DNA of 64,000 bases from Maribacter arenosus (GTDB taxonomy: Bacteria > Bacteroidota > Bacteroidia > Flavobacteriales > Flavobacteriaceae), in assembly GCF_014610845.1 (NCBI RefSeq), contig NZ_JABTCG010000002.1, positions 248,001-312,000 on the forward strand, read 5' to 3'. The notes beneath the pieces were generated by a model. It saw only the letters and a program-made list of their open reading frames with translations, had not been told where the DNA came from and ran no database searches. Below, piece by piece: positions 5,689 to 35,909 of this stretch; the first letter of the stretch is position 1, and each line of letters starts with the position of its first letter. The position numbers and the translations under genes were made by a program.

Positions 5689-6639
5689 ATGCGAACAATT
5701 TTTATACTTAGTGTTTTTATGCTGTTTCATTGGATGCAGGGGCATGCCAATAGCTATGATTTTTCATTGACCCATAATGACTTTATCGATTCCTTTAATT
5801 CTCTCAATGCATCAGAGGGTCTAAAAAACTTAGGGGGGGGAGGAGAACTTGGCAGCTTGAAATCTTCAATCAACATCACCTCTCCAAATAGTCATTCGAT
5901 TTGGACCATACCTGGACCGGCAGAACTGGAATGGACCACCCAAAATATCGGCACGGCGAAATCGATACGCTTTTTCCTTGCCAAGGATGATATGGTGGTG
6001 CAGGAATTGGGTACGTTTAAAAATACAGGAATGGCCAAGGATATCGTTTTAGCCAAGAACATCGGCTCTGGGGATAATTATCAGGTAGTAGGCATTGAGA
6101 TGTTCCCGGATGATAGATTCCATATCGCAAAATTTTCTACCCCATATTTTTCTATCCGAAATAAGGAATCGGATGCCAGAAAGGAACGGGCTAGACTTGC
6201 AAATACCACACAGACCCCTGCGGTACAAAAAAAAGTTGAAGCATCCCAACCTGTTGAAGCAGCACTGCCTGTTGCAGCACCAAAAAGGATGGAATTCGAT
6301 GGTCGGAATATTACCTATGTTAAGGAATTGGCTTTTACCAAAGAAAAAATTAAAATACACATTTGGGACCATGGTAGGCAAGATGGTGATATTGTCTCCA
6401 TTTATCTTAACGGCTTTACAGTGGTTTCAAAACACTTGCTGACCTATCATAAAAAATCCATCGAAATTACATTGGATCCCAAAAAGAAAAACGACCTGTT
6501 CGTATATGCCCATAACCTAGGAAAATATGCGCCGAATACTGTTTCCGTTGAAATCACCGATGGAACGACCTTGGAAAACATCATCCTGAATTCAGACCTT
6601 AAAAGTTGTGAGGCCGTTTTAATCAGTGTGAATAAATAA
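5689..6639 (+). CDS. Secreted protein with Kre9/KNH-like domain
   Basis: 316 residues with a signal peptide (about 1-20, ending GHAN). Residues about 58-155 resemble the Kre9/KNH-type Ser-Thr-rich surface domain (ITSPNSHSIWTIPGPAELEW, then a run through GDNYQVVGIEMFPD). An Ala/Pro/Gln/Lys linker at about 170-200 joins it to a C-terminal beta-rich domain (HIWDHGRQDGDIVSIYLNG, then NTVSVEITDG). Both domains are familiar from Bacteroidota secreted proteins, but no enzyme motif is visible. A cell-surface or periplasmic binding role is inferred. It is monocistronic, facing the oxidoreductase gene convergently. Confidence 0.7.
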   Translation: MRTIFILSVFMLFHWMQGHANSYDFSLTHNDFIDSFNSLNASEGLKNLGGGGELGSLKSSINITSPNSHSIWTIPGPAELEWTTQNIGTAKSIRFFLAKDDMVVQELGTFKNTGMAKDIVLAKNIGSGDNYQVVGIEMFPDDRFHIAKFSTPYFSIRNKESDARKERARLANTTQTPAVQKKVEASQPVEAALPVAAPKRMEFDGRNITYVKELAFTKEKIKIHIWDHGRQDGDIVSIYLNGFTVVSKHLLTYHKKSIEITLDPKKKNDLFVYAHNLGKYAPNTVSVEITDGTTLENIILNSDLKSCEAVLISVNK

Positions 6640-6648
6640 TTTTTTCAA

Positions 6649-7755
6649 TTACAAGCTAACTTTCCCACCCGTTTTGGCGGCCATGTAAATCGCATCCATG
6701 ATTTTAAGATCCTTCAATCCCTCTTCCCCATCAACGGGAACCAAGGGTTGAATACCCTCAAAAATAAGTTGGGCCATTCCATCCATTTGTAAGGTTTGAT
6801 GGGTAATATGCGGTTGGTTCAGTTCCCCATTATGGGTTCTCCCTTTGATAGGCCCATAACCTATGGAAGGCTGCATTTCTACCCAACCATCATCCCCCGT
6901 CATAAAGAAACGATCTAAATGCCTCATGGCGTAGGTTGATAGACATGATGCCACTGCCCCACTGGGAAAGCCCATTTGAAAGGTTATGGTTTCATCAATA
7001 CCTGCCTTGAACTTCACGGGATCTGTTTTTGTTTCCTGGGCAGTGACCCAAATAGGTTCCTCCCCCAGCATATACCGGGCCCCATTTACGGCATAGATGC
7101 CAATATCTATCATGGCCCCACCTCCCGATAATTCCTTGTTTAAACGCCATTGGTCAGGATTCCCTATAACAAAGCCCGTTTGTCCTTGAAAAAACCTGGG
7201 CTGCCCAAATTCCCCAGTCTTTCGCATTCGTATGACCTCTACGGTTTTAGGTTCAAAATGCATACGGTAACCCACTAACAATTTTACATTCGCGGCTTTG
7301 CAAGCCATTACCATGCGTTCCCCTTCCTCAGCATTGATGGCCATAGGTTTTTCACAAATCACATGCTTACCGGCCTTTGCGACACGAATAGCCTGCTCGC
7401 AATGGAGTCCGTTTGGTGTAATGATATATACCGCATCGATATCAGGATTATGCTTAATGGCATCAAAATCTTCATAATTGTAGCAATTTTTTTCGGGAAT
7501 GTTATATTCAGCCTGCCATTTCGTGATTTTTGAAGGGGTACCGCTGATCACGCCGACCAATTGGGCCCGTTTGCAATCCTGCATCGCATTGGCTACCCGG
7601 GTACCATAATTGCCCAACCCCATTATGGCCACTCTAAGTATGCGGCCCTCATATGGTGTGTCGCAAGCGGCAAAAACACTTGCAGGGCTATATAAAATAG
7701 GCAGGCTTACTGCCGAAATCGATAATTTTTCAAGAAAATCCCTTCGTGAACCCAT
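6649..7755 (-). CDS. Gfo/Idh/MocA-family oxidoreductase, Tat-exported
   Basis: 368 residues from the ATG at 7755. The start is chosen there because it gives a clean twin-arginine signal (MGSRRDFLEKLSISAVSLP), while a longer frame from 7827 would bury it. The Rossmann fold is shown by RVAIMGLGNYGTRVA, and CEKPMAINAEEG is the family's EKP motif. Members oxidise or reduce sugars with a tightly bound NAD(P), often in the periplasm, like glucose-fructose oxidoreductase. Substrate unknown. Convergent with the upstream-lying secreted protein gene and separated by about 190 bases from the outer-membrane barrel gene. Confidence 0.88.
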   Translation of the reverse strand: MGSRRDFLEKLSISAVSLPILYSPASVFAACDTPYEGRILRVAIMGLGNYGTRVANAMQDCKRAQLVGVISGTPSKITKWQAEYNIPEKNCYNYEDFDAIKHNPDIDAVYIITPNGLHCEQAIRVAKAGKHVICEKPMAINAEEGERMVMACKAANVKLLVGYRMHFEPKTVEVIRMRKTGEFGQPRFFQGQTGFVIGNPDQWRLNKELSGGGAMIDIGIYAVNGARYMLGEEPIWVTAQETKTDPVKFKAGIDETITFQMGFPSGAVASCLSTYAMRHLDRFFMTGDDGWVEMQPSIGYGPIKGRTHNGELNQPHITHQTLQMDGMAQLIFEGIQPLVPVDGEEGLKDLKIMDAIYMAAKTGGKVSL

Positions 7756-7945
7756 AGTATTTTGATTTGTATTAAAAATACGCTTAAATACCAAAAACAC
7801 ATTATAACTAAAAAAAAAAGACTTCAATATGCATTGAAGCCTATAGTTTTATCAGAGGAAATCCTGTAATGCCCAAACTTTCATCAAGCACCAACTTTAC
7901 TTTTTGAAATTCAGTTCATTGCATGCTTCTATTCCCGATGCAATT

Positions 7946-10324
7946 TTAGAACCTTCTACGCTGACCTGAGTATTGCATAGCTTCTCCCTTCCCAAAGCCA
8001 TAGCTAAAGCCCAAGGCAATAAAACGACCGCGTTGGCGACGACTGTAGACCTCGAAATCGTTCTGGACAATTTCATCTTCATTGATTCTTGAAGCGAACA
8101 GGTCCCGTACACTTAAGTTCAATACCGCCTTACCCTTTAGGATATTCTTTCGTAACCCAAGATCCATAAAAAGATTATCGCTACGAACCCCTTGCACCGT
8201 TCTCACTCTCGAGTTATAATTGCCCGTGGTCTCCAATTCAAAATCAGCTGGGAGCTTTAGTTTTGCCATAACTTTAGATGACCATTGATCTCCATCAAAA
8301 TCAAAGACGGTACTTTCAAAAATACCTTCCCGCTTAAACTCGCTATAATTGAAATCCGCATTAAGTGTCATCCATTTAAAGGGGGCGTACTTGGCGTTGA
8401 ATTCAATACCTGTAACCTTGTTCTCTCCAATATTCTCAGGTCTCACTGTGTTCACATTGTTCGCAAAAAAAGAGACCCGTTCAATGACATCGGTCGTATA
8501 GCGATAATAGGCCCCGAAATTTATGGATGCCTTACCTAAAATATAGATACTGGTAATCTCATACGAATCGGTAAACTCTGGTTGTAAATCGGGATTTCCC
8601 TGTCGGATACTAAAATTGTTTCGGATATTGAAAAATGGGTTAAGGTCCCACATTCTTGGTCTATAGACACGCTTTGAATAGCCTGCCTGCACCGAAATTT
8701 TGTCCGTGAATTTATAAGAGGAATGAACACTAGGAAAAAGGTTGGTATAGTTCTGTTCGTTGGCCTGGTCAGTGTTCTCCAATAAGGTATTCAAATTGGT
8801 TTGTTCTAATCGCAGGCCAGCTTTAATGCCCCATTTTGAACCCTCATAGGAGCCGGTACCATATACGCCCAATACATTTTGGTCGAAATCGAAAATATTG
8901 GTCAAACCAGGGTCCACAACGAAACTTCCATTTTCAAAATCACTGACCTCGTAGTCGTTCTTCACATCATTTAATACATATTGCGCACCTGTCTCTATCT
9001 TCCATTTTTCAGAAAATGGCCTGGTGTAATCCAATTTAAAGGTAAACACTGATTCCTTAAAATCTGTTCGGGTTTTTTGTTCGGCATCGTTATCAGTACC
9101 ACTAAGCGTTGTATTGATAAAGTCCGATGATTGATCCTTCCCGAAAAAATTTCCTAAAGAGCTAAATACCAGGGTATGGTCCTCATCCCCGTTAAAATCC
9201 TTTTTATACTGCAACTCAAATTGAAGTTTAGGATTCTCGGCTTCAGTTACCTCTGTACGTTGCCACTCAGAGACAACGTTATCGGAGGCATCCAAGGAAG
9301 TGAAACTGGTTGTTGAGGGTTGATCTTCCAACTCCATTGCAAAATTCCCGGAAAGTGTCAAAACGTTGTTTTCATCAATGTAGTAATCGGTACCCAACAC
9401 AAAATTGTAGTACGTCTCGTTTCTATACTCCGTACCGGTCGAGAGTACAGTAGTATTGTTCACCAAATCCACATTTCGATTTATCCTATCATCCGGTAGT
9501 TCCCGAATACCATAGCCCAATTGACTGAATAGGTTGAATTTTTCACTTCTTCGGTTAAGACTTATACCAATACTATGCGAATCTGGCGCTCCCGTATTCA
9601 CCGATACTGAACCATTTAAACCTTTTCTTTGGTCTTTTTTAATGACAATGTTTATTATGCCCGATGTACCCTCGGCATCGTATTTTGCAGAGGGATTTGT
9701 GATTACCTCAATCCTATCGATCATATCCGCCGTAATAGTTCCCAAGGTATTACCCTCTTCGCTAGCGATAACCGATGGTTTACCATTAATCAAAATTTGG
9801 ACGCCTCGGCTGCCCCGGAGGCTTATTTGCCCTTCGATATCCACATTGACCGAGGGAACATTGTTCAATACATCCAAGGCACTTGCGCCAGTAGTGCTCA
9901 AATCCTTACCCACGTTAAATACCCGTTTATCCAACTTAAATTCGGTTCGGGATATTTCTCCACGAACCACTACTTCTTGTAATTTCTCGGCATCTTCCGA
10001 CAATGTAATGGTTCCCAACGTTATTGTTTCACCCTTGGTCACAGGTTGACCAAAAGTCTTAGTCTCGAAACCGATAAAACTAACCTCAATATAGAAATTG
10101 GAGGCTTTCGTCTCCAGCTCAAAACTACCATCTTCCAATGTAGTGGTACCACTCAAAGGTTTTTGGGTTTCAGAATCGGCTACCAAAACCGTTGCGAACT
10201 CTATAGGTCGTTCATTGACATCAACCACTTTACCGGTAATCAGGGTGGTGGTCTGGGCAACGATACCCGTAATATTCAAGATTTGAAATCCAAATAAAAG
10301 AGAATAGAGTATGTAGCGTTTCAT
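7946..10324 (-). CDS. TonB-dependent receptor-like outer-membrane barrel protein
   Basis: 792 residues. Signal peptide (about 1-23, ending GIVAQ), a carboxypeptidase-regulatory-like beta-sandwich at about 28-115 (ITGKVVDVNERPIEFATVLV), a plug-like domain (LDVLNNVPSVNVDIEGQISLRG), then a long outer-membrane barrel of the OMP_b-brl_3 type. Barrels of this type import or handle ligands at the outer membrane, but no SusD partner is adjacent, so the ligand is unknown. It is divergent from a LytS/LytTR pair, and this arrangement is common in flavobacteria, so the two-component system probably controls it. Confidence 0.88.
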   Translation of the reverse strand: MKRYILYSLLFGFQILNITGIVAQTTTLITGKVVDVNERPIEFATVLVADSETQKPLSGTTTLEDGSFELETKASNFYIEVSFIGFETKTFGQPVTKGETITLGTITLSEDAEKLQEVVVRGEISRTEFKLDKRVFNVGKDLSTTGASALDVLNNVPSVNVDIEGQISLRGSRGVQILINGKPSVIASEEGNTLGTITADMIDRIEVITNPSAKYDAEGTSGIINIVIKKDQRKGLNGSVSVNTGAPDSHSIGISLNRRSEKFNLFSQLGYGIRELPDDRINRNVDLVNNTTVLSTGTEYRNETYYNFVLGTDYYIDENNVLTLSGNFAMELEDQPSTTSFTSLDASDNVVSEWQRTEVTEAENPKLQFELQYKKDFNGDEDHTLVFSSLGNFFGKDQSSDFINTTLSGTDNDAEQKTRTDFKESVFTFKLDYTRPFSEKWKIETGAQYVLNDVKNDYEVSDFENGSFVVDPGLTNIFDFDQNVLGVYGTGSYEGSKWGIKAGLRLEQTNLNTLLENTDQANEQNYTNLFPSVHSSYKFTDKISVQAGYSKRVYRPRMWDLNPFFNIRNNFSIRQGNPDLQPEFTDSYEITSIYILGKASINFGAYYRYTTDVIERVSFFANNVNTVRPENIGENKVTGIEFNAKYAPFKWMTLNADFNYSEFKREGIFESTVFDFDGDQWSSKVMAKLKLPADFELETTGNYNSRVRTVQGVRSDNLFMDLGLRKNILKGKAVLNLSVRDLFASRINEDEIVQNDFEVYSRRQRGRFIALGFSYGFGKGEAMQYSGQRRRF

Positions 10325-33427: not shown

Positions 33428-33434
33428 ATAACAG

Positions 33435-33465
33435 AAGCCAGATTAATAGGGTCTGGCTTTTTTTA
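33435..33465 (+). terminator. Terminator after the TM2 gene
   Basis: AAGCCAGA (33435-33442) pairs with TCTGGCTT (33452-33459), 9-base loop, followed by a T run to 33464. Confidence 0.85.
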
Positions 33466-33482
33466 ATCGATTTATTATCGTA

Positions 33483-33494
33483 ATATTGCAATAT
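33483..33494. promoter_or_regulatory. Perfect 12-bp palindrome before arsR, likely ArsR operator
   Basis: ATATTGCAATAT, 11 bases before the arsR start codon, in an AT-rich promoter region. ArsR-family repressors bind AT-rich palindromes overlapping their own promoters and leave DNA when As(III) or another thiophilic ligand binds, so autoregulation is expected here. Confidence 0.6.
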
Positions 33495-33505
33495 ATAAAT
33501 ACATT

Positions 33506-33829
33506 ATGGGAATCACCAAAACACAGATCTTTAACAAAAAACAGAATAAACTGGCAACGATATTCAAGGTACTCGCCCATCCGGCAAGGATAGCGATACT
33601 TCAGTATATCAGTAATCAAAAAGCATGTATCTGCAATGATATTGTTGCCGAAATAGGCTTGGCACAACCGACGATTTCGCAACACTTGAAGGAACTGAAA
33701 AGTATTGACCTGATCAAAGGGGACATCAGCGGTAAAAGAATATGTTACTGTATCAACCTAAAGAAATGGAAGGAAATACAAACTGAATCGAATGCCTTCT
33801 TTGATAAAACCAAATTTAATTGTTGTTAA
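33506..33829 (+). CDS. arsR: ArsR-family metalloregulator
   Basis: 107 residues, winged helix-turn-helix repressor (KVLAHPARIAILQYISNQ, GLAQPTISQHLKELKSID). Candidate thiol ligands are Cys41 and Cys43 (ACICND, in place of the classical ELCVCDL), Cys80 and Cys82, and a C-terminal Cys106-Cys107 pair. First gene of a five-gene arsenic-type operon, with a palindrome over its own promoter (33483-33494). The ligand is inferred to be As(III) from the arsC gene downstream. Confidence 0.92.
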   Translation: MGITKTQIFNKKQNKLATIFKVLAHPARIAILQYISNQKACICNDIVAEIGLAQPTISQHLKELKSIDLIKGDISGKRICYCINLKKWKEIQTESNAFFDKTKFNCC

Positions 33830-33841
33830 AAACCCATCATT

Positions 33842-34330
33842 ATGCTAACGAATGAATTCTTATCGCTATTGGAACAAAATCAAAATAAAAGCCTCCTTTT
33901 TGAATACAAAGACGGTTATTATGTCGGCACCAATTACCATATTACAGAAGTTAAGAACATTACGATTGATTCCGTTGATTGCGGTGCTCATACCGACTTT
34001 TGGAAAGAGACCGTTATTCAACTTTTGGAAAGTCCGACAGAGAAAGACAAAAGGGAATTCATGACCGCTTTCAAGGCCATGGGGATTCTAAATAAAGTAG
34101 ATCTCATTAAGCCTATGCGAAAAGAAGCCGAAGTAAAATTCGAATATGGTAATCCCAGTTTCCATACGGCACAACTCTTTGTGAACGATTTTCTACTTGA
34201 TGAAAACAAGTTAATCATGAAATTAGGTGTCCAAACAACCGATTGCAAGGCAAAGGAATCTTGCGGAGTGTCCGTCGAGGCTAATAGTCAAGTAGAAGCA
34301 TGTTATTCACCCGGAAATGGATGTTGCTAG
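33842..34330 (+). CDS. DUF6428-family protein with C-terminal Cys-Cys
   Basis: 162 residues, soluble. N-terminal domain is the one found beside arsR genes in Bacteroidota (LFEYKDGYYVGTNYHITEVK, DCGAHTDFWKETVIQL), which I recognise as DUF6428. Cysteines cluster at the end: Cys135, Cys141, Cys154, Cys161 and Cys162, ending GNGCC. A thiol-rich tail of this kind could bind As(III) and deliver it to a partner. It follows arsR by 12 bases in one transcript. Function unproven; the arsenic link is by context. Confidence 0.8.
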   Translation: MLTNEFLSLLEQNQNKSLLFEYKDGYYVGTNYHITEVKNITIDSVDCGAHTDFWKETVIQLLESPTEKDKREFMTAFKAMGILNKVDLIKPMRKEAEVKFEYGNPSFHTAQLFVNDFLLDENKLIMKLGVQTTDCKAKESCGVSVEANSQVEACYSPGNGCC

Positions 34331-34349
34331 CCCATTTAATTACCCTATT

Positions 34350-34922
34350 ATGGAAATCATCTTTTATCTTGCTACTGCCTGTCTAATTTTCTTTATGATC
34401 TTGGCTGCCTATGACGGGTTCTATTTACACATATTCAAATACGGACTATTTAATCATAAAGAGAGTATTTTCGAGCATAAGACCCATACGATACGGGCTA
34501 TATTGTTTCCGTTCATTATTTGGTCCCTATTCATCAATGAATCGAATTCTGACCTATTCCTATTCGGAATCTCCCTAGTAGTATTCGATTTGGTAATACT
34601 AGGAATCGATGCATATTCTGAAAAGGAAAGTCGCAATTTTATGGGAGGCCTCCCAAAATGGGAATACATCATTCATCTCTTTTCAAATGCGTTCCATTTC
34701 TCTGCCATTGTTCTTGTTCTTGCACTAAAAATCGAAATAACCGGCAGCAGTTTAACGTTTGTCAGCGAAATTGTCGCTTCTTCGGCCCAAGGGTTGTTTG
34801 CTTTTGTCAGTATCAATGTAATTCCCGGTGCTATAATATTGGCCATATTGCATTTTATATTACTGTTGGATACACCCCGAGCCAGGTGGAACAACCTTCG
34901 TGCTAAGATAACCTGCTGTTAA
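34350..34922 (+). CDS. Uncharacterised arsenic-operon membrane protein
   Basis: 190 residues from the ATG at 34350 (MEIIFYLATACLIFFMILA); an in-frame ATG at 34317 would overlap the previous gene. Five hydrophobic segments (about 3-22, 50-65, 69-90, 107-127 and 158-180) with His- and charge-rich loops between the first two. It ends KITCC. I do not recognise the family. It is not similar to ArsB or ACR3 by length or motifs. Since the operon has no other membrane protein, it is the only candidate for moving arsenic or an arsenic compound across the membrane, but this is inference. Confidence 0.7.
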   Translation: MEIIFYLATACLIFFMILAAYDGFYLHIFKYGLFNHKESIFEHKTHTIRAILFPFIIWSLFINESNSDLFLFGISLVVFDLVILGIDAYSEKESRNFMGGLPKWEYIIHLFSNAFHFSAIVLVLALKIEITGSSLTFVSEIVASSAQGLFAFVSINVIPGAIILAILHFILLLDTPRARWNNLRAKITCC

Positions 34923-34924
34923 AA

Positions 34925-35431
34925 ATGAGTAATACATTACATATTATGACCAGGCCAATGATATCGGAAGATTGGGAAGCCGTTGCCTCTATCTATGCCG
35001 AAGGTATAGCTACAGGTTTAGCAACTTTTGAAAAGCAGGTTCCTACCTTTGAGGTCTGGGACAAGGCCCATCTTAAATGGTGTAGAATTGTTGCGGTCGA
35101 TAAGAACATCATTTTGGGTTGGGCGGCTTTATCCCCTGTTTCCGGTAGATGTGTTTATGGGGGCGTAGCTGAAGTAAGTGTTTATGTTGGCCAAGCGTAT
35201 AACCGCAAAGGTGTGGGAAAAGTACTCATGAAAGAATTAATATCACAAAGTGAAAAAAATGGGTTTTGGACCTTGCAATCTGGTGTTTTTCCTGAAAATG
35301 TGGGTAGTATTGCCTTGCATAAAAAGGTTGGTTTTCGTTATATTGGTACTCGGGAACGAGTGGGCCAACTAGATGGTATTTGGAAGGATAATCTCCTATT
35401 TGAACGTAGAAGCAAAATAGTTGGGATATAA
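34925..35431 (+). CDS. arsN1: GNAT N-acetyltransferase, phosphinothricin/ArsN1-like
   Basis: 168 residues. Resembles phosphinothricin acetyltransferases: TRPMISEDWEAVASIYAEGI near the start, acetyl-CoA loop AYNRKGVGKVLM, and a C-terminal GFRYIGTRERVGQLDGIWKD. Within arsenic operons such enzymes are known as ArsN1, which acetylates the arsenic antibiotic arsinothricin. That role is inferred from family and context; other amine substrates are possible. Placed between the membrane protein gene (2 bases gap) and arsC. Confidence 0.8.
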   Translation: MSNTLHIMTRPMISEDWEAVASIYAEGIATGLATFEKQVPTFEVWDKAHLKWCRIVAVDKNIILGWAALSPVSGRCVYGGVAEVSVYVGQAYNRKGVGKVLMKELISQSEKNGFWTLQSGVFPENVGSIALHKKVGFRYIGTRERVGQLDGIWKDNLLFERRSKIVGI

Positions 35432-35486: not shown

Positions 35487-35909
35487 ATGAAGAACATTTT
35501 GGTATTGTGTACAGGCAATTCCTGTAGAAGTCAAATGGCACATGGCTATTTGGAAAAATTACAAAATGGGCTGGCCAACATCTATAGTGCCGGAATAGAA
35601 ACCCATGGATTAAACCCTAATGCAGTGGCTATAATGGCTGAAGATGGTATTGATATTTCAAAGCACGGCTCAAACCACGTTAATGAATATATCGATGTGG
35701 ATTTTGATTTTATTATCACGGTCTGTGATCATGCCGATGAAAACTGTCCCTACATTCCCTCGAAAAATGCCAAAAGATTCCATCATAATTTTCTTGATCC
35801 TTCAAAGTTTGAAGGTACAGCCGAAGAAAAGCATGATGTTTTCTTAAAGGTAAGGAACGATATCAAGGAATATTGTCAAAAATTCATATTGCGCGAATTG
35901 CACGACTAA
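35487..35909 (+). CDS. arsC: Arsenate reductase, thioredoxin-coupled (ArsC)
   Basis: 140 residues of the low-molecular-weight phosphatase fold. The P-loop Cys8-x4-Cys13-Arg14 (LCTGNSCRS) and the redox pair Cys80 and Cys87 (VCDHADENCP) match the spacing of S. aureus ArsC, in which Cys10, Cys82 and Cys89 relay electrons from thioredoxin. The acid loop is FLDPSKFEG. Reduces arsenate to arsenite. Last gene of the operon; its stop overlaps the stop of the convergent acyltransferase gene. An arsenite exporter would be expected next but is absent. Confidence 0.93.
   Translation: MKNILVLCTGNSCRSQMAHGYLEKLQNGLANIYSAGIETHGLNPNAVAIMAEDGIDISKHGSNHVNEYIDVDFDFIITVCDHADENCPYIPSKNAKRFHHNFLDPSKFEGTAEEKHDVFLKVRNDIKEYCQKFILRELHD

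Follow-up and report, generated by a model that had tools for sequence, protein, structure and literature searches.

Vicinal cysteine tails shared by unrelated proteins of an arsenic resistance operon in Maribacter arenosus and its relatives

This study focused on an arsenic resistance (ars) operon of Maribacter arenosus in which three consecutive genes specify unrelated proteins that all terminate in two vicinal cysteines (CC): the repressor ArsR (ending KFNCC), a DUF6428 protein (GNGCC), and an uncharacterised membrane protein, here called MEM (KITCC). An earlier note on this DNA had drawn attention to the three endings, and they were confirmed. CC ends are found chiefly in arsenic genes, and the pattern extends beyond the three proteins to ArsM, the maker of methylarsenite. 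The tails probably bind arsenic, and they may also pass it from protein to protein. The window is the whole stretch of DNA that was analysed, 64,000 nucleotides in length (contig NZ_JABTCG010000002.1, positions 248,001 to 312,000), and Table 1 gives the positions of the operon within it, along with a second ars operon from the same genome.

Table 1. Features of the ars operon in the window, numbered from the first letter of the window, and location of the second ars operon.
Feature	Position	Strand	Remarks
ArsR operator	33473..33499	+	19/27 bases agree with the published ArArsR footprint (PMC11868830, available text)
ArsR	33506..33829	+	107 aa; tail codons 33821-33826
DUF6428 protein	33842..34330	+	162 aa; tail codons 34322-34327
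MEM (uncharacterised 5-helix membrane protein)	34350..34922	+	190 aa; tail codons 34914-34919
GNAT acetyltransferase, ArsN1a-like	34925..35431	+	no CC end
ArsC, LMWP fold	35487..35909	+	Cys 8, 80, 87; no CC end
Second ars operon (other contig)	L221 (G000:C18:449000-463000), 6411-9372		arsR, arsM, ArsC-like gene, acr3

The window operon belongs to the Bacteroidota type of ars operon, with the gene order arsR, DUF6428, MEM, ArsN1a-like GNAT and LMWP-type arsC on the forward strand, while the first gene downstream of arsC is carried on the opposite strand. ArsR matched Pfam HTH_5 (41.6 bits) and NCBIfam HTH_metalloreg (70 bits). The GNAT protein scored 132.3 bits against the ArsN1a model (NCBIfam NF040503), which is under the 170-bit cut-off, and so it is termed ArsN1a-like only; the top NCBIfam match of ArsC, to arsC_pI258_fam, was also under its cut-off (143.5 bits, cut-off 174.3). 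The three ArsC cysteines presumably match the triad of arsC_pI258-type ArsC. The start of MEM is most likely the ATG at 34350, because this Met was invariant across the 11 MEM sequences compared, and because a start at 34317 was rejected, its codon falling within the DUF6428 gene. Between arsR and the TM2-domain gene that precedes it, an inverted repeat with a run of T after it (33430-33466) is terminator-like by eye, and a terminator scan did not list the region.

The earlier note held that such a row of endings was unlikely to arise by chance, and the counts agree. CC ends were found on 3/56 of the window gene calls of at least 100 aa, and these were the three neighbours ArsR, DUF6428 and MEM; genes were called as the longest non-overlapping ORFs, which makes all such totals approximate. 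As background, 4/938 other genes at loci L050-L129 were CC-ended, three of the four matching ArsM, and across loci L001-L225 the figure was 2/1392 distinct proteins once ArsR, DUF6428, MEM and ArsM were excluded. One of these two (L194) is a doubtful ORF of 119 aa, and the other (L118) resembles a mercury-transport protein by eye. At the rate of 4/938, and treating genes as independent, the probability that three named neighbours would all be CC-ended is about 8e-8, and that of at least three CC ends among 56 genes is 0.002. The corresponding nucleotide pattern, TGYTGYTAR, showed no enrichment in the genome (180 sites versus 351 for the reversed pattern), and when the first 30 of these were checked, just one (L194) was at the end of an ORF of at least 100 aa.

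The tails were also conserved among orthologues. In the pooled loci, CC ends were present in 120/130 ArsR, 132/135 DUF6428 and 69/81 MEM proteins, these being raw counts with identical ends removed, ArsR-type taken as 120 bits or more, and each relative counted individually whatever its kinship; this leaves 10/130 ArsR and 12/81 MEM without an exact CC end. DUF6428 matches were found in 117/149 genomes of Flavobacteriaceae. A family sample of 90 DUF6428 loci, including that of the window, was examined, and DUF6428 was CC-ended in 89 of them. An ArsR-type gene lay near DUF6428 in 83 of the 90, its product being CC-ended in 76, with CC no more than six residues from the end in one, and without the tail in six where DUF6428 retained its own. 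No CC end occurred on the GNAT (0/38) or ArsC (0/71) proteins of the family-sample loci. All three genes were present at 45 loci (within L050-L129), 40 of which had all three tails, and at least one tail was missing from L051, L116, L121, L124 and L126. Tails are lost singly, and there is therefore no tight co-variation. Gene order varies between loci, and the tails persist. In ArsR, the tail codons were TGT-TGT (46), TGT-TGC (27), TGC-TGC (19) and TGC-TGT (28); both TGT and TGC occur at both positions, so it is the protein sequence that is kept, not the bases. The residues preceding the ArsR CC vary, the frequency of the commonest residue being 0.27-0.63 at positions -12 to -3.

The DUF6428 protein of the window matched PF20001 over the entire model (positions 1-155 of 155, 149.4 bits versus a cut-off of 28.7, E 9e-44), and its cysteines are at 47, 135, 141, 154, 161 and 162. 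In the family sample, 88/90 DUF6428 tails had the spacing Cx5CC or CCx5CC, with the full CCx5CC in 51/90. The window protein has its upstream Cys at -9 instead of -8 (Cx6CC), the sole case among the 89 that are CC-ended. In the predicted structure the core is folded and the tail (146-162, pLDDT below 50) disordered, and a structure comparison found no confident relative of solved structure for either DUF6428 or MEM. In its CCx5CC spacing DUF6428 is like the ArsD of E. coli R773, whose C-terminal vicinal pairs are given as Cys112-113 and Cys119-120 in the available text of the source (PMC4562236). However, it is unlike ArsD, an arsenic metallochaperone and repressor, in other respects: the ArsD domain PF06953 had no match in the window protein (which matched only PF20001) or anywhere in the genome, and the N-terminal Cys12-Cys13-Cys18 site is absent, the first Cys being residue 47.

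Plasmid-borne DUF6428 was found in 81 records, including Deinococcus, Thermus, Roseomonas and rhizobia. Nine of these were examined, one from Bacteroidota and the rest from Alphaproteobacteria and Deinococcota. In all nine (9/9) arsR adjoins DUF6428, and most of the loci also carry arsN1/arsN2, arsC, arsK, arsH, an arsenite exporter or an aquaporin. The DUF6428 cysteine tail lies near the end of the protein in 8/9, several with extra residues, and in the Thermus protein 14 residues come after one CC. The four Deinococcus records and Thermus have an ArsR without a CC end, as do the three alphaproteobacterial records (two with an internal CC), and the Bacteroidota record is the only one of the nine with an exact ArsR CC end. 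Even so, the four Deinococcus DUF6428 proteins retain the cysteine tail. From these sequences, the DUF6428 tail looks wider in distribution than the ArsR tail. A plasmid of Deinococcus aetherius (L341 3524-4534) specifies an ArsN2-DUF6428 fusion in which the tail cysteines are retained.

The window ArsR, with cysteines at 41, 43, 80, 82, 106 and 107, has the layout of ArArsR from Arsenicibacter rosenii, in which the six cysteines are at 41, 43, 80, 82, 107 and 108 (PMC11868830). In an alignment of 44 ArsR sequences, C41, C82 and C106 were invariant, and C80 and C107 were present in at least 90%. According to the available text of the ArArsR study by Zhang and others, the As(III) site is C41-C80-C82, which sets ArArsR apart as the fourth ArsR type by As(III) site, and the tail cysteines were tried solely as candidates for sensing and found dispensable: the single mutants C107S and C108S, in E. 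coli without DUF6428, retained the response to both As(III) and MAs(III) (PMC11868830). The ArsR tail would therefore be kept for a role other than sensing, at least as far as the E. coli reporter without DUF6428 is concerned. The likeness between the two repressors includes a common operator core, but the ArArsR operon is arsRMC, with no mention of DUF6428 or MEM in the available text (PMC11868830), while the window operon has both. A C-terminal pair is also found in AfArsR, a type 2 ArsR (Cys95-Cys96, with Cys102); there the pair belongs to the sensing site, whereas in ArArsR, the orthologue of the window ArsR, it does not (PMC11868830, available text).

In the second ars operon, ArsR ends ENCC and ArsM ends SNNGCC, and the ArsC-like protein and Acr3 have no CC end. 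There are six HTH_5 matches in the genome, and only the ArsRs of the two ars operons have the CC end. The wider occurrence of the ArsM tail was assessed in the best 70 of 88 matches over the curated cut-off from 198 phylum genomes. Among these best 70, 27 were CC-ended, 7 had CC no more than six residues from the end, and the last eight residues of the other 36 lacked CC. By rank, the tail was present in 25/30 of the top matches and 9/40 of the next, with 31 of the 36 tail-less proteins among the lower 40, and it is therefore confined to part of the ArsM family. In the same best 70 of 88, a tail was more often found on an ArsM next to a tailed-type ArsR (28/47 versus 6/23), and 24/70 had the Cx5CC or CCx5CC spacing. 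Many DUF6428 and ArsM tails are alike, consisting of Cys, any residue, Pro-Gly-Ser-Gly and Cys-Cys.

MEM of the window had no Pfam or NCBIfam match, and its cysteines are at 11, 189 and 190. In the AlphaFold2 model (mean pLDDT 92.6) the protein has five helices in the membrane, and a further, C-terminal helix (174-186) leads up to the CC. The mean number of K+R residues was 3.9 in the C-tail versus 0.3 in loop 2 and 0.5 in loop 4, and the tail is therefore predicted to lie on the cytosolic side. Conservation across 79 sequences reached at least 90% at sixteen D/E/H/K/R/N residues, including His 27, 43, 46, 109, 116 and 168, Asp 22, 80 and 87, and Glu 42, 91 and 105. Judged from helix position, most of the conserved polar residues face the tail side, which suggests a putative metal site there. 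MEM was found in 12/397 genomes of Flavobacteriaceae, one match being weak and partial. The 80 named MEM loci were classed by context. Where ArsR or DUF6428 lay no more than 1 kb away, 33/34 MEM proteins were CC-ended, the remaining one ending CCLPA. With an adjacent Crp-type regulator and ars genes within 6 kb, the CC end was present in 13/17, and one more had CC plus four residues; where the regulator adjoined MEM but no ars gene turned up within 6 kb (some contigs being shorter than this), 16/20 had the CC end. This end was present in 2/5 with an ars gene only, plus one with CC and eight or fewer residues, and in 4/4 with neither regulator nor ars gene. The CC is kept where ars genes were not found, and so the tail on MEM is not restricted to ars operons. 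The Crp-type regulator lies directly upstream of many MEM genes (e.g., L077 7349-7921). In 36/39 of the cases adjoining MEM it carries a conserved CxC, often as SCFC, and it may be a thiol-based sensor.

The explanation to which we incline, by a small degree, is that the tails are capture arms for trivalent arsenic, most likely exchanging arsenite made by ArsC between a carrier and an enzyme or membrane protein. ArsR, DUF6428, ArsM and MEM, while unrelated, would each present a C-terminal arm closing in a vicinal dithiol, and these arms would bind trivalent arsenicals. One or two extra cysteines, five residues upstream, make a three-thiol As(III) site possible in DUF6428 and ArsM, and such three- or four-thiol arms could hold inorganic As(III) unaided; the two-thiol arms of ArsR and MEM would leave one As(III) ligand free for exchange with a partner, or would fit mono-organic As(III). 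Arsenite produced by ArsC would be caught by the arms, after which carrier and enzyme, or carrier and membrane protein, would exchange it. As the genome has no ArsD match, the soluble carrier is most plausibly DUF6428, which could serve as carrier or buffer in place of ArsD because Cx5CC or CCx5CC would suffice for a three-thiol As(III) site. Binding and hand-off, the direction of transfer and what MEM does are what we infer from the sequences. A comparable arrangement is seen in MerP-MerT-MerA, where a C-terminal Cys pair (558-559) takes a thiophilic metal from a membrane protein, but there the metal is mercury rather than arsenic and the pair sits on the enzyme MerA (PMC5715351, available text). 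A more ambitious proposal, which we offer tentatively, is of a hand-off system in which repressor, carrier, methyltransferase and membrane protein evolved the same dithiol arm, and arsenite and methylarsenite would move from the carrier to enzyme or membrane while never free; DUF6428 would be an ArsD-like carrier, and MEM, whose conserved histidines and carboxylates lie towards the cytosolic face, would be a new membrane enzyme that acts on trivalent arsenic or a transporter of it.

The arms might instead buffer without any hand-off, each soaking up As(III) locally, so that free As(III) is lowered and partners are unneeded. This is rather unlikely in our estimation, although the tails do occur singly and in varying company, the DUF6428 tail is predicted to be disordered, and the ArsR tail is dispensable for sensing in ArArsR (PMC11868830). 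The two-thiol tails of ArsR and MEM would make a poor sink for inorganic As(III). Repressors are usually of low copy, and a sink on such a protein makes little sense. Alternatively, the two-thiol tails could serve mono-organic As(III), such as methylarsenite or reduced arsinothricin, rather than inorganic arsenite. MAs(III) needs two thiols, but ArArsR C107S and C108S still answer to it (PMC11868830, available text). The window operon does carry a GNAT like ArsN1a, and the tail is present on ArsM, but the GNAT falls under the ArsN1a cut-off and the operon has ArsC without ArsM, and we regard a purely mono-organic role as unlikely.

A redox function, in which the tails would work by dithiol/disulfide exchange and either restore reduced ArsC or ArsM or be reduced by thioredoxin themselves, would suit the fact that LMWP-type ArsC, the type in the window, requires thiol recycling; it is quite improbable, as a repressor and a membrane protein, for which no redox step is known, are among the proteins with tails, and no tail occurs on ArsC itself (0/71). 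That the CC ends are a relic or an accident, common by descent or drift and without present function, is barely credible: some losses have occurred (10/130 ArsR and 12/81 MEM are not exactly CC), but the background is 2/1392, TGT and TGC are both used at both positions, and the preceding residues vary while the two Cys persist.

The earlier note had proposed a thiol relay running from sensor through carrier to membrane protein, and this idea is only partly supported. Its foundations hold: the proteins are unrelated, the setting is one of arsenic resistance, and the tails are conserved among orthologues, so that one ground for refutation named in the note, a lack of such conservation, does not apply. 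The chain as stated is not supported. In the orthologue ArArsR the tail is not the sensing site, as the single mutants C107S and C108S still respond (PMC11868830, available text). As a general chain it fails because MEM, present in 12/397 genomes versus 117/149 for DUF6428, is too rare to be a required end. A relay among all three tails is at odds with the four Deinococcus records, in which the DUF6428 tail stands beside tail-less ArsRs, and membership of MEM in an ars relay with the 16/20 CC ends at Crp-type loci where no ars gene was found within 6 kb.

The earlier note also knew of no description of shared tails. A search of the open-access literature found no paper mentioning DUF6428, and no title or opening of an abstract that deals with a common tail on ars proteins, but the tail cysteines of ArsR had already been described and mutated (PMC11868830, available text). 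The parts have precedents in ArsD, MerA and AfArsR, and the new point is the sharing of the tail across unrelated proteins. It gives a candidate function for DUF6428, widespread in the family genomes sampled, and offers a reason for the conserved ArsR tail, which the published ArArsR mutants leave unexplained. If true, unrelated proteins of one pathway would here have clearly converged on a handle for metal hand-off, and the CC tail could be used as a sequence tag for unknown arsenic proteins such as MEM.

The 13-base operator core shared with ArArsR, ATCGTAATATTGC, occurs exactly at 33477-33489, upstream of the window arsR, and in 107/111 of the upstream regions examined for related arsR genes (ArsR score at least 140 bits, with some genomes possibly twice among the 111). 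A scan of the M. arenosus genome found one other exact copy before a gene, that of the second ars operon. Across the phylum the core was present in 65/198 genomes, the reversed control occurring at 4 places in all 198, and a core this near to specific could be used to map the ArsR regulon across the phylum.
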